The notes under the pieces: model-generated
Seen by the model: the letters and a program-made list of their open reading frames with translations, nothing else
Database searches by the model: none
What the model was told of the DNA's origin: nothing
NCBI GenBank assembly: GCA_015075745.1
Contig: JABTTW010000003.1
Location: 1 to 64,000 of the forward strand
Origin: Planctomycetia bacterium
GTDB taxonomy: Bacteria > Planctomycetota > Phycisphaerae > UBA1845 > UTPLA1
DNA length: 64,000 nucleotides
Direction of reading: 5' to 3'
Program-made: the position numbers and the translations under genes
In this document: positions 43,260-47,941 of the stretch, one piece after another
How positions within the stretch are numbered: position 1 is the stretch's first letter
Layout of the letters: every line of letters starts with the position of its first letter

Positions 43260-43500
43260 GCGGTTGCAAGAATTCTCGCTGAAGAAGGACATCCCCTGCT
43301 GGTACGGCACGTGCTTATAGGTTCCAGCGATGCGGTGACGAAGGCTGCGTCGGGCAGCTTGCTGGGGGAGGCCCGTCGGAGATTCGTGCTCCTGGGAGAG
43401 GGAGTCGCGGGTCTTTCGGAGGGCTTCGCCCAGCGGGTTGCTGCTTTCAGTAGCAGTGGGGCCGTGCCGAGGGGAGTCGGCGCGGCCCCGAATTTTTTTT
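43260..43500 (+). ncRNA. Possible structured small RNA ending in a strong terminator
   Basis: This 240-base stretch has no credible coding frame. It can form several local helices: CGGGC/GCCCG near 43350-43376, CTGCT/AGCAG near 43441-43456, and the final terminator. An extended -10-like TGTGATAAT lies just upstream. The combination of promoter-like sequence, multiple stems and terminator suggests an independent small RNA. I could not match it to 6S RNA, SRP RNA, tmRNA or RNase P. Structure was judged by eye only. Confidence 0.3.
43458..43500 (+). terminator. Intrinsic terminator
   Basis: A 13-bp stem (43458-43470 with 43477-43489), with one G-T wobble and a 6-base loop, is followed by GAA and eight T (43493-43500). 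It is a textbook rho-independent terminator, upstream of the riboswitch leader. Confidence 0.85.
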
Positions 43501-43659: not shown

Positions 43660-43840
43660 GAATATCGCTCGGCCCTGGCCTCCTGTGTTGGAGTAAAAAG
43701 GGAAGGTGGTGCAAATCCACCGCGGTCCCGCCGCTGTAATCGGGGACGAACGCCGCAAATGCCATTTTCGCCATGTGCGAAGAGAAGGCGCGGTCAGTAG
43801 GACGATCCGAGAGCCAGAAGACCTGCCTGTGCCGTGTTGT
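43660..43840 (+). promoter_or_regulatory. Cobalamin (B12) riboswitch
   Basis: The conserved core is clear: AAAAAGGGAAGGTGGTGCAA then ATCCACC and CGGTCCCGCCGCTGTAAT from 43696 to 43740. The B12-box AGCCAGAAGACCTGCC is at 43812-43827. The stretch between has the expected variable stems. Boundaries are approximate. A terminator hairpin 75-120 bases downstream provides the expression platform, so binding of cobalamin should reduce transcription of the secreted protein and pseudopilin genes that follow. Confidence 0.88.
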
Positions 43841-43915
43841 CGTTTCCGCCCCGGATCTGGGCGTAAGTCGGCGACATCGTGACCGTGCATCTTCTATCGC
43901 ACCCAACGAGTCTCC

Positions 43916-43960
43916 AACCTCCGTCCCGGAACCCATCCGGCTGGCGGAGGTTTTTCTTTT
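43916..43960 (+). terminator. Riboswitch expression-platform terminator
   Basis: An outer 8-bp stem AACCTCCG/CGGAGGTT (43916-43923 with 43945-43952), with an internal CCGG/CCGG pairing, is followed by TTTTTCTTTT (43951-43960). It lies between the B12 aptamer and the GTG start at 43998, as expected for a transcription-terminating riboswitch. Confidence 0.75.
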
Positions 43961-43997
43961 CCGGCGGCGAAAGACGGCCGGAGAGAGGAGATGGATT

Positions 43998-45086
43998 GTG
44001 GTGTCATTTCGTTCGCACCGTGCGAGGTCTCGATTTGCAGGCGGCCTCTTCGCCCTGACGGCGCTGGCCGTCATCCCGATTCCCAACAGCTTTGGCCAAA
44101 GCGTTCAATGGACCGAGACATTCCAGGATGATCCGATTGTCGCGGATCGCTTCTCCGTTCCACCGGGCCACGACGATCTGCGATTCACTTATGACGGCGG
44201 ATCGCAGCGGCTTACGGCGCACTTCGATTCCTTTGAGCCGACGGCGTGGTATGTACGTCCGCTCGACTCGCAAAGCCCCGTTGCCTTCGGTGCCTGCGAT
44301 GAGTTTGAGTTCACGGTCACGTTTCGTGTTCTTTCCGCGGGTTTCTTTGCCGATCCCGATCAGTTCGCTCAGATCGGCTGGGGACTTATCAACTCCGCCA
44401 CGACCGGAACCGATCGGGCCGGCGGCGCGGGACCGGACTTCGCATTCGACAATGTTGCGTTCGATTACTTTCCGAATGTCAGCCCGCTGTTCGGCGGTCC
44501 GACGCTCGGCTCGACGCTGATTCACAGCGATACGGGCGCGGGTTACTTTTCGGAGTTTGAGTTTCCGTTCGGCGCGGAGTCGCGGATCGACACGCCTTTC
44601 GGTGACGAAGACATCGCACTGGATGTCCTGACGACGGCGACCGTCCACTTCAACCCGCAGACGCAGGTGCTGACACTGACCGTCTCTCAAGGCGGCAATG
44701 ACCTGGCGATCAATGCCGACGGCACGGGCGGGCCCGGCGGGACGGACGCGAATGTGACGACAATTCAGACGGCGCTCTTCGTGGACCATCCATTTTCCGT
44801 CGATTCGTTCGCCATCACGCTCTGGCAGGATACGTTCAATCCGTTCGGATCGAGCGTGATCGCAGATGTGGAGTTTTCGGAGATTCAGTTTGCCGGGCAG
44901 CTTCGACCAGCGGGCGATATGAACGGCGACGGCGCTGCGAACGGATTGGACATCGCGCCCTTCGTCGAGGTGCTACTGGGGAGCGTGCCCAGCTCGTGCC
45001 AGACGGCGTCGGGAGACTTTGACGAGAGCCAGAGCGTCACGATTGACGACGTGGGCGGGTTTGTCGCGGCACTCGTGGGATCGTAA
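43998..45086 (+). CDS. Secreted dockerin-type protein under B12 riboswitch control
   Basis: A protein of about 362 residues starting at a GTG (43998, or the adjacent 44001) with a GAGAGGAG ribosome site 7 bases upstream. The longer frame from 43773 would read through the riboswitch and was rejected. A signal peptide ends near FGQS. A beta-rich domain of about 270 residues follows, of the jelly-roll/concanavalin type by its pattern (inference). The C-terminal dockerin-like pair is GDMNGDGAANGLDIAPFVE and GDFDESQSVTIDDVGGFV. The riboswitch suggests a part in scavenging or handling cobalamin or a cobalamin-dependent process outside the cell. No TonB or Btu motif is visible, so the link is regulatory only. 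Confidence 0.75.
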   Translation: MVSFRSHRARSRFAGGLFALTALAVIPIPNSFGQSVQWTETFQDDPIVADRFSVPPGHDDLRFTYDGGSQRLTAHFDSFEPTAWYVRPLDSQSPVAFGACDEFEFTVTFRVLSAGFFADPDQFAQIGWGLINSATTGTDRAGGAGPDFAFDNVAFDYFPNVSPLFGGPTLGSTLIHSDTGAGYFSEFEFPFGAESRIDTPFGDEDIALDVLTTATVHFNPQTQVLTLTVSQGGNDLAINADGTGGPGGTDANVTTIQTALFVDHPFSVDSFAITLWQDTFNPFGSSVIADVEFSEIQFAGQLRPAGDMNGDGAANGLDIAPFVEVLLGSVPSSCQTASGDFDESQSVTIDDVGGFVAALVGS

Positions 45087-45089
45087 GGC

Positions 45090-45998
45090 ATGACGCATCA
45101 CGTACTCAGAAACATGGGGCGGGGTGGACGCGGGAGAGGGGCCGCGTTCACCCTGCTCGAACTATTGGTCGTGACGTCGGTCGTCGGCCTGCTGGCGGCG
45201 GTGCTGATTCCGGCGCTGGGGGAAGCGCGGTCGGCCGGTCGAAGCTCGGTGTGCATCGCGGCGCTGCATCAGGCCGGGCTGGGCATGACGATGTACCTCG
45301 ATGACAACGACGGCTGGTTCTGGCCTTACTACAAGGACGTCAGCGGGCCGGACGGCGGGCGGCGGTGGTGGTTCGGGTTTGAACCGGGCGGGCCGTCGAG
45401 CAACCCACTTCAGACCGGGCGCAGGCTGGATCGTGCGGCGGGATTCCTCGGGAAGTACCTCAGCGCGGGGGCGGAGGACTTTCGGTGTCCGAGCTTTCCG
45501 TCTCAATCGGGCCTCTACTTTCGCAAGTTCGAACCTTCGGCGGGCGGGTTCGGCTATAACACCGGCGCGCTGGGGGGCTACAACTGGATCAGCAGCGCGA
45601 CCTCGGGGACCGGGCGGGCCGCGGAGTTCGCCGGGCGGAGTGCCGACGTCTTTGCACTGGCGGACGGCATTCACTTCGACCGGCTCGATTACTCATCGGG
45701 CGGGACGCTCGATCAGCCGTTCAACGAGCCGGCGTACATCCAGTGGCAGGAGCCTTCGCTTTTCGATCGCAATGTCGGCGTGAACGGCGGCTTTGCGCAC
45801 TTCCGCCACGGCAAGCAGGCGCAGGTGCTGTACCTCGACGGGCACGCGGCGCGGCAGCCGCTGCGGCGAGCGAATCATCCGTACGGCAAAAAGGGCTTCG
45901 GGCCGATCGGCAATCTCGCGGATGAGACTCTCGGCGTGACGGAGATTCGCAAGGGGAATCTGACGCTGCGCGTCGATCGCATATACGGGCTGCGATAG
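45090..45998 (+). CDS. H-x9-DG type pseudopilin
   Basis: A 302-residue protein with a type IV prepilin-like leader: AFTLLELLVVTSVVGLLAAVLIPAL at residues 19-43, with cleavage expected before Phe. A globular domain follows, then the planctomycete C-terminal motif HGKQAQVLYLDGHA (H-x9-DG). It starts 4 bases after the dockerin-type gene, so it is in the same riboswitch-controlled transcript. Such proteins are numerous in planctomycetes and probably form type II secretion-like pseudopili; the particular cargo is unknown. Two B12-regulated, co-transcribed surface genes make a shared uptake role a reasonable hypothesis. Confidence 0.8.
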   Translation: MTHHVLRNMGRGGRGRGAAFTLLELLVVTSVVGLLAAVLIPALGEARSAGRSSVCIAALHQAGLGMTMYLDDNDGWFWPYYKDVSGPDGGRRWWFGFEPGGPSSNPLQTGRRLDRAAGFLGKYLSAGAEDFRCPSFPSQSGLYFRKFEPSAGGFGYNTGALGGYNWISSATSGTGRAAEFAGRSADVFALADGIHFDRLDYSSGGTLDQPFNEPAYIQWQEPSLFDRNVGVNGGFAHFRHGKQAQVLYLDGHAARQPLRRANHPYGKKGFGPIGNLADETLGVTEIRKGNLTLRVDRIYGLR

Positions 45999-46039
45999 CC
46001 GGTTTGGTGCAGTTTGCTTCGCGGCCATACAATCACCGC

Positions 46040-47941
46040 GTGGACGCGCACACGCTGGAAAAACTTGAGTTCGATCAGATCCGACGCATCCTGGCGACCT
46101 GTGCCAGTTGCGCCGTCGGCAAGGAGCTGGCCGCGCGGATCACGCCTTCTCGAAAGGCGTCGCAGGTCGCGCTGTGGCGCACGCAGAACATCGAGTTCGC
46201 GGCGTGGACCGACGCGCACGGGCTTCCGCCGCTGGGCGGGGTTCGAGATGTTCGCGGGCACATTCGCCGGGCGATTCCACCGGCCAAGCTGGAGCCTGAG
46301 GAATTCGCCGAGGTTGCTTCGACCCTTGAAGCGATCATTGCCCTTCGTCGATATCTCGGTGAGGCCGGCGAACCGAACGAGACGATTCAGAAGCTGGCCG
46401 GCCGGGTGGGCGACTTTCAACCGATCGTGGATCGCATTCGCAAGGTGATCGACGATCGCGGCTGCGTGGTGGACCGGGCGAGCGACCGGCTGTGGCGGAT
46501 TCGCCAGGATATTGATGACGCGCGGGTGCAGATTCGCGCGGTCTTCGATCGGATTCTTCGGCAACCGCATGTCAGCCGTTACCTGCAATATCCCAACGCG
46601 ACATTTCACGCCGATCGGATGGTGCTGCCGCTTCGGGCGGATCAGCGCGGGCGGGTGACGGGAATCATTCATCGCAGCAGCGACAGCGGCCAGACGCTTT
46701 TCGTTGAGCCGGCCGAGGCGGTGGAGCTGAACAACACGCGGGTGAATCTGTTGCAGGCCGAGTCGGAAGAGATCGGGCGCATCCTCTGGGAACTGACGCA
46801 TCTGATTCACCTGAATCAAAAGGAACTCCTGCGGACGCTGGAGACAGTGGCGCTGATCGACCTGCTGACGGCGAAGATTCGATTCGCGAAGAAATACGAC
46901 CTTGTCATTCCCGGATTGTCGGAGGAGCCGAAGCTGCTGCTGCGCCGGGCGCGTAATCCCATTTTGTTGACCCAGGGCCAGGATGGGGACGGACAGGCCG
47001 ATCGCGTCAATGTCGTGCCGATCGACGTGCGGCTGGGCGATGACTTCGACATCATGATCATCACCGGGCCCAATACCGGGGGGAAAACCGCGGCGCTCAA
47101 AACCGTCGGACTCATTGTGGTGATGGCCCAGTCGGGTTTACCGATTCCCGCCGATCCGGGCTCGACGCTGCCGGCGTTTGACGGCGTGTGGATCGACGTC
47201 GGTGACGAGCAGAGCCTGCACCAATCTTTGAGCACCTTCAGTGCGCACATGCGGCGCATCCTTGAGATCGTAAAGCGGGCCCGACCGGGGACGCTGGTGC
47301 TGCTGGATGAGCTGGGGGCGGGGACGGACCCGGACGAAGGGGCCGCGATCGGCCGGGCGATTGTCGAGCATCTCGGGCAGACCAAGTGCCTGGCGATGGT
47401 GACGACGCACCTGGGAAGCCTGAAGAGCATGGCGCTGGAGTTGCCGAGAATCGACAATGCCTCGGTGCAGTTCGACCTTGAGACGCTGCGGCCGACCTAT
47501 GAGCTTTGCATCGGCGAGCCGGGGATGAGCAACGCCATTGCGATTGCTTCGCGTCTGGGGATGCCGAAGACCATGGTCGAGCGCGCCAAGCGACACCTGA
47601 GCAGCCAGCATCGGGCTTTGAACCGGGCGATCGGGCAGACGCTTCGGTCGCGGCGCGATGCCGAGCGGTCGCGGAAGGATGCGGAGGCTGCCCGGGCAGA
47701 GGCGGCGAGGGCGACGCTGGCGGCGATGGATCGGGCCAAGGCGCTGGAGAAGGAGCAGCTTCGCTATTCGACATGGCTGGAGCGGGTCTTGACGCTGCGG
47801 CCCGGGGATCCGGTGCGGGTGGCGAAATTCGACAATCCAGGTCGGATTGTGCGCGTGCGGTTGGAGAAGCAGGAGGCGTCGGTCGATCTGGGGACGATGG
47901 AGGTTCAGGTGCCGCTGTCGGAGTTGATTTTTCCGTCTTAG
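46040..47941 (+). CDS. MutS2-like ATPase lacking the Smr domain
   Basis: A protein of about 633 residues. The start at GTG 46040 gives DAHTLEKLEFDQIRRIL, the usual MutS2 N-terminus; a GTG at 46004 adds 12 residues, and neither has a good ribosome site. The ATPase domain has ITGPNTGGKTAALKTVGL near 340 and LVLLDELGAGTDPDEGAAIG near 420, followed by VTTHLGSLK. The helical region of MutS2 follows, then a KOW-like strand region (GDPVRVAKFDNPGRIVRV), but the C-terminal Smr nuclease domain is missing (typical MutS2 is about 780 residues). It probably binds branched DNA or stalled ribosomes without nicking. It lies downstream of the pseudopilin by 41 bases and may share its transcript. Confidence 0.8.
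   Translation: MDAHTLEKLEFDQIRRILATCASCAVGKELAARITPSRKASQVALWRTQNIEFAAWTDAHGLPPLGGVRDVRGHIRRAIPPAKLEPEEFAEVASTLEAIIALRRYLGEAGEPNETIQKLAGRVGDFQPIVDRIRKVIDDRGCVVDRASDRLWRIRQDIDDARVQIRAVFDRILRQPHVSRYLQYPNATFHADRMVLPLRADQRGRVTGIIHRSSDSGQTLFVEPAEAVELNNTRVNLLQAESEEIGRILWELTHLIHLNQKELLRTLETVALIDLLTAKIRFAKKYDLVIPGLSEEPKLLLRRARNPILLTQGQDGDGQADRVNVVPIDVRLGDDFDIMIITGPNTGGKTAALKTVGLIVVMAQSGLPIPADPGSTLPAFDGVWIDVGDEQSLHQSLSTFSAHMRRILEIVKRARPGTLVLLDELGAGTDPDEGAAIGRAIVEHLGQTKCLAMVTTHLGSLKSMALELPRIDNASVQFDLETLRPTYELCIGEPGMSNAIAIASRLGMPKTMVERAKRHLSSQHRALNRAIGQTLRSRRDAERSRKDAEAARAEAARATLAAMDRAKALEKEQLRYSTWLERVLTLRPGDPVRVAKFDNPGRIVRVRLEKQEASVDLGTMEVQVPLSELIFPS

Follow-up and report, generated by a model that had tools for sequence, protein, structure and literature searches.

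Capture of vitamin B12 at the cell surface under riboswitch control is already known from Bacteroides, whose B12 loci comprise BtuB-BtuG, BtuH and BtuJ/DUF4465 (PMC6143338, PMC10404256, PMC8941943, PMC12751083, PMC13398666). The Bacteroides B12 proteins 8BLW and 7BIZ have been solved (PMC8941943, PMC10404256), and B12 binding by DUF4465 has been shown in several phyla, including Mucisphaera of the Phycisphaerae (PMC13398666); BtuH-like and DUF4465 proteins are thus families with experimentally shown B12 binding. The locus described here lies in a window of 64,000 nucleotides, the whole stretch of DNA analysed, from a planctomycete, and consists of a cobalamin riboswitch followed by a gene for a secreted protein (gene 1) and a gene for a pseudopilin (gene 2) (Table 1). 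The operon contains no TonB receptor and BtuB is absent from all 61 riboswitch loci of the focal order, in keeping with the statement of an earlier note on this DNA that the controlled genes are not TonB or Btu transport genes.

The riboswitch and the two genes behind it

The aptamer matches RF00174 over the full length of the model (1-189) with 117.9 bits and an E value of 6e-29, the gathering score being 31.5 bits, and it is the only cobalamin aptamer detected with this model in the 5.0 Mb focal genome. The intrinsic terminator that follows predicts that gene expression is OFF when B12 is plentiful. Its form, CCTCCG...CGGAGG followed by a T-run, is conserved in the four closest relatives that share this operon (G001, G002, G009 and G010). 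Of 60 leaders, 40 have a terminator-like hairpin after the riboswitch and before the first gene, compared with 9 of 60 shuffled leaders. The aptamer core, B12 box and terminator platform described in the earlier note are all present. A separate strong intrinsic terminator at 43457-43490, 5' of the riboswitch, closes an earlier transcript.

Translation of gene 1 most likely starts at the first of two adjacent GTG codons, the alternative being GTG 44001, and the signal peptide of its product was judged by eye. The AlphaFold2 model of this protein is a beta-sandwich with a mean pLDDT of 69.6, in which the core strands reach 80-94 and the stretch 158-204 is of low confidence. Foldseek places the model in the legume-lectin/concanavalin fold (E 1e-8), and comparison with VIA gives a Z score of 15.2 and an rmsd of 3.1 over 204 residues. 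The C-terminal tail scores 15.3 bits against Pfam Dockerin_1, under the cut-off of 22.9, and the profile of its family, A4, matches solved dockerins in the PDB (E 2.5e-5); dockerin-type tails give 21 matches in the focal genome. The secreted beta protein with signal peptide and dockerin-like tail that had been read from the sequence agrees with the predicted beta-sandwich and the dockerin-like tail.

Three known B12 binders were considered for gene 1 and rejected on sequence. In the PDB, up to an E value of 10, the A4 profile matches nothing but dockerins and EF-hands, which speaks against BtuH; no match to PF14717 appears up to the same value, which speaks against DUF4465 (BtuJ); and there is no sequence match to BtuG. 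None of BtuH, BtuJ and BtuG is among the fold matches listed for the model, the top ones being legume lectins. On these sequence and profile comparisons, the focal protein is best described as a family apart from BtuH and DUF4465, with a predicted legume-lectin-like jelly roll. Five polar or aromatic residues conserved in 11 A4 members (Q124, N131, T135, R139 and Y156) may form a putative ligand face.

The stop codon of gene 1 and the start of gene 2 are 3 nt apart, not 4 as given in the earlier note, and gene 2 has an alternative start at ATG 45114. The N-terminus of its product is GspG-like and matches the prepilin model TIGR02532 (17.1 bits, cut-off 16.3), and the protein carries the exact H-x9-DG motif (Table 1). 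R231, H232, D242, G243 and H244 are invariant in 53 aligned riboswitch-linked pseudopilins, of which the H-X9-DG family model TIGR04294 matches 21, the focal one not among them. In the structural model the helix 14-64 is mostly above pLDDT 90; the globular part is of low confidence, and a fold search gave nothing useful past the N-terminal helix. A MutS2-like gene lies closely 3' of the pseudopilin (45998-46040), here and in several genomes of the family; transcripts of the operon may extend into it, and the arrangement is probably only synteny.

Table 1. Features of the riboswitch-controlled operon (positions in the window)
Feature	Start	End	Strand	Basis
Cobalamin riboswitch aptamer (RF00174) with B12 box GCCAGAAGACC	43659	43844	+	cmscan
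Intrinsic terminator as expression platform, GC-rich hairpin and U-tract	43916	43960	+	RNA fold, z -2.9
Gene 1, secreted protein: signal peptide, predicted jelly-roll, dockerin-like tail	43998	45086	+	ORF, translation; family A4
Predicted legume-lectin/concanavalin-A-like beta-sandwich domain of gene 1	44094	44909	+	AlphaFold2, Foldseek, VIA comparison
Dockerin-like tail of gene 1, two EF-hand-like loops	44910	45083	+	Dockerin_1, family profile
Gene 2, dedicated pseudopilin, DUF1559/H-X9-DG type, 302 aa	45090	45998	+	start ATG 45090
H-x9-DG motif of gene 2 (RHGKQAQVLYLDG)	45807	45842	+	sequence, exact motif

Recurrence of the pseudopilin and its partners

The riboswitch is present in 58 of 61 related genomes of the focal order. 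Its surroundings were collected as loci, in which genes were called with a home-made model and the products clustered. An orthologous pseudopilin lies on the same strand within 5 kb downstream in 55 of the 61 riboswitch loci of the order (window included), and contig ends cut two of the six loci in which none was detected. The chance expectation for a random same-strand stretch of 5 kb is about 1%, so the pairing of riboswitch and pseudopilin is not a matter of chance. No other member of the operon is as constant as the pseudopilin.

With the focal protein as sole query, 84,980 species' genomes yielded nine loci of family A4; RF00174 lies immediately 5' in eight of them, and the ninth begins near a contig end. 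The recurrence behind B12 aptamers, whose absence the earlier note had named as refuting its interpretation, is clear. One Lentisphaeria and one Verrucomicrobiia genome are among the A4 loci, each with an adjoining pseudopilin, the order of the two genes being reversed in the Lentisphaeria locus; the planctomycete-specific path envisaged in the earlier note does not hold in that respect.

Riboswitch-linked pseudopilins form a distinct group within a large paralogue family, which counts 8-43 H-X9-DG pseudopilins per genome and 34 in the focal one. They score 237-317 bits with the family profile and any other pseudopilin at most 139, a separation that is partly circular, since riboswitch-linked members had supplied the profile. 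The focal pseudopilin scores 237 bits and its best paralogue in the same genome 139; the pseudopilin of G017, which was outside the building set, reaches 249 bits. In a quick maximum-likelihood tree, which has several long branches and weak deep splits, these pseudopilins form, for the most part, four clades, which track the type of partner protein rather than the host family. All ten rows of one clade (SH-aLRT 99) have a lectin-fold partner, and this clade takes in Lentisphaeria, Phycisphaeraceae and two families of the order; one further lectin-partnered pseudopilin, the eleventh, is a long-branched Verrucomicrobiia row outside it. A propeller partner accompanies all 24 rows of another clade and is absent from every other row. 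Pilin and partner are thus inherited together, and we argue that they are a functional unit.

The partners carry signal peptides and dockerin or PEP-CTERM tails. The profile of the commonest family, A1, matches the H-domain of BtuG1 (8BLW, E 6e-11) and BtuH2 (7BIZ, E 6e-6), both from Bacteroides, and DUF4465 (PF14717) matches proteins in the secreted slot of some riboswitch loci. As an independent test, 198 genomes of the focal class were searched for DUF4465, which added 22 loci. A riboswitch lies just 5' in 20 of these, the remaining two ending at contig borders; a pseudopilin is on the same strand in 21, the last one reaching a contig end; a BtuH-like gene is present in 21 and BtuB in none. 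Other riboswitch loci add a PQQ-type propeller protein, which was considered as BtuG and rejected: its profile matches BamB/PQQ propellers, not BtuG, and the likeness to BtuG is one of placement only. The cluster-3 partner family, A6, consists of small secreted PEP-CTERM/dockerin proteins behind B12 riboswitches (for example L082:12173-12769, L194:8042-8749 and L240:8071-8622) with a conserved GxGxN...VVDF...GYRWDG pattern; no relatives were found in Pfam or the PDB, and we regard A6 as a candidate new B12-binding family. In two operons (L072 and L097, from G011 and G013) the gene order is cobalamin adenosyltransferase (PF01923), BtuH-like, propeller, pseudopilin, so that a salvage enzyme shares the unit with the capture genes; the adenosyltransferase-like first gene is Pfam-confirmed in one of the two and assigned by clustering in the other.

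Inner-membrane transport genes join the riboswitch in several arrangements. The order is riboswitch-DUF4465-BtuH-pseudopilin-BtuF-BtuD-BtuC in G117, and riboswitch-BtuF-BtuC-BtuD-pseudopilin, with the secreted partner absent, in G153. A second operon type dispenses with the secreted partner: in G197, G147 and G084 (L189, L200 and L213) the pseudopilin directly follows the riboswitch. All three also have a small membrane protein, in two of them a PP-loop ATPase resembling DUF71/COG2102 comes next, and L213 has a BtuF-like protein. In L063 (G024) the riboswitch and pseudopilin are followed by what by eye resembles an S-adenosylhomocysteine hydrolase, which would be a link to the methionine cycle. 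Among 60 riboswitch loci sampled across the phylum, 16 have BtuB, a lower bound because the BtuB profile was derived from 12 of the same loci, 10 have the pseudopilin and none has both. In four loci from other classes of the phylum (L203, L191, L214 and L237) the riboswitch precedes a gene for a secreted, beta-propeller-like protein some 470-490 aa long; these loci have neither BtuB nor pseudopilin, and their propeller-like proteins are candidate BtuG-like binders.

Possible roles of the operon

We propose, as a moderately probable account, that the operon serves B12 acquisition induced by B12 starvation, and that the capture protein and the dedicated pseudopilin carry out the outer-membrane step instead of BtuB. 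When B12 is scarce the terminator would not form and the operon would be on; the secreted, surface-displayed protein would capture B12; the pseudopilin would join a type II secretion/type IV pilus-like apparatus built on the secretins of the genome; this apparatus and the capture protein would carry out the outer-membrane step that BtuB performs elsewhere; and BtuFCD, encoded elsewhere in the focal genome (a BtuC-D-F-like cluster at about 875-879 kb of G000:C2), would move B12 across the inner membrane. The cell-surface path for cobalamin capture put forward in the earlier note is, as far as gene content can tell, strongly supported by the BtuH-like and DUF4465 proteins in the same slot and by BtuFCD in some operons; its restriction to planctomycetes is the part that falls.

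The demand for the cofactor fits the gene content. B12-binding enzyme domains were found in all 21 genomes tested, as were secretins, and FecCD permeases in 20 of them, while CbiC of corrin synthesis was found in none of the 21; the focal planctomycete accordingly appears to require B12 and to be devoid of corrin-ring synthesis. Searches whose positive controls worked detected the TonB-receptor barrel in only 23 of 61 genomes of the order, or in 18 of the 47 good-quality ones, while the plug was present in 4 of 21 genomes. The focal genome does carry one TonB receptor, which counts against our reading; this single receptor (G000:C1:813103-814812, L144) has no riboswitch, is away from the Btu genes and adjoins a substrate-binding-like protein and a histidine kinase. 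Cobalamin has a mass of about 1,355 Da. For ordinary porins a limit of about 600 Da is quoted (PMC5394234), and the excess of cobalamin over it was counted in favour of a dedicated outer-membrane step. In planctomycetes, pili-like fibres bind dextran during uptake (PMC5394234). Also against our reading, the focal protein has no sequence relation to known B12 binders and its predicted fold resembles sugar-binding lectins. In our reading the focal protein would nevertheless bind B12.

The strongest competing explanation also makes this an operon for B12 acquisition, with a pseudopilin that only assists in exporting the B12 binder, by way of a type II secretion-like system, while B12 enters by some other channel. 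Type II secretion systems contain pseudopilins, the partners bear signal peptides and dockerin or PEP-CTERM tails, and clades that track partner type are what an export adaptor would produce. Pseudopilins also occasionally adjoin other dockerin proteins (3 of 30), which together with the abundance of H-X9-DG pseudopilins makes a general export role possible. Export alone nevertheless leaves G153, with its BtuFCD genes, and G084, G197 and G147 carrying a pseudopilin that has no secreted partner; the pseudopilin recurs more constantly than any other member and never stands alongside BtuB; and a TonB receptor is absent from most genomes, so the importer would be missing. We consider this explanation unlikely, since partnerless pseudopilin operons, together with the lack of a TonB importer in most genomes, tilt the case towards a pseudopilin that serves import and does not simply export the binder. 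More tentatively, and with somewhat less than even confidence, we suggest a TonB-independent importer in planctomycetes and relatives without BtuB: a B12-repressed pseudopilus-type machine that would be loaded by interchangeable B12 binders at the surface (BtuH-like, DUF4465, propeller and lectin-fold) and would pull B12 across the outer membrane.

A B12-dependent surface change without uptake, which the earlier note had also raised, is less likely. The lectin-fold protein and the pilin would then form a B12-repressed adhesin tying starved cells to B12-producing neighbours, as the predicted legume-lectin fold, the dockerin tail and the pilin partner might suggest, but the BtuH-like and DUF4465 loci would be left unexplained, lectin-like folds are known with many kinds of ligand, a BtuH-like gene precedes the lectin-fold gene in one operon (L124), and operons include BtuFCD and cobalamin adenosyltransferase; we judge the adhesin quite improbable. 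That the riboswitch regulates something else, or that a generic dockerin-pseudopilin pair merely sits behind it, draws on the commonness of such tails and pseudopilins in the focal genome and is refuted, to a negligible residual probability, by the 55 of 61 loci against the chance expectation and by recurrence in other classes and phyla.

Relation to known B12 uptake systems

No earlier report of a link between a pseudopilin and B12 was found in the open-access literature searched, and the same literature gave no precedent for a pseudopilin at the BtuB position, for the lectin-fold partner or for the spread over Planctomycetota, Lentisphaeria and Verrucomicrobiia. Pilus-driven import, if true, would be a new category, and it would say what one branch of the very large family of DUF1559/H-X9-DG paralogues does. 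In Planctopirus limnophila, transposon data mark two of 68 DUF1559 paralogues as essential (PMC10632474). It bears on the open question of how a 1.35 kDa cofactor passes the outer membrane in Gram-negatives without BtuB and on the long-standing question of large-molecule uptake by planctomycetes; the riboswitch-marked pseudopilin is a concrete candidate for both. The acquisition reading also predicts new B12-binding protein families.

With the Bacteroides loci the planctomycete operons share riboswitch control, BtuH and DUF4465 surface proteins in related loci and BtuFCD in some operons. They differ in having no BtuB or TonB receptor and a pseudopilin instead, and in proteins that end in dockerin or PEP-CTERM tails, whereas the Bacteroides counterparts are lipoproteins; the focal protein, moreover, is of another family, and probably of another fold, than the Bacteroides binders. 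The pseudopilin resembles GspG, GspH, ComGC and the planctomycete DUF1559/H-X9-DG proteins in its prepilin N-terminus and H-X9-DG motif; unlike other pseudopilins of type II secretion, type IV pili and competence, it belongs to the riboswitch-linked group. Classical operons of other classes, such as riboswitch-BtuB-BtuC-BtuD-BtuF in G120 (L187), have the same riboswitch and the same inner-membrane transporter family, but in them the TonB receptor does the outer-membrane step, and in the 60-locus sample it is never accompanied by a pseudopilin.
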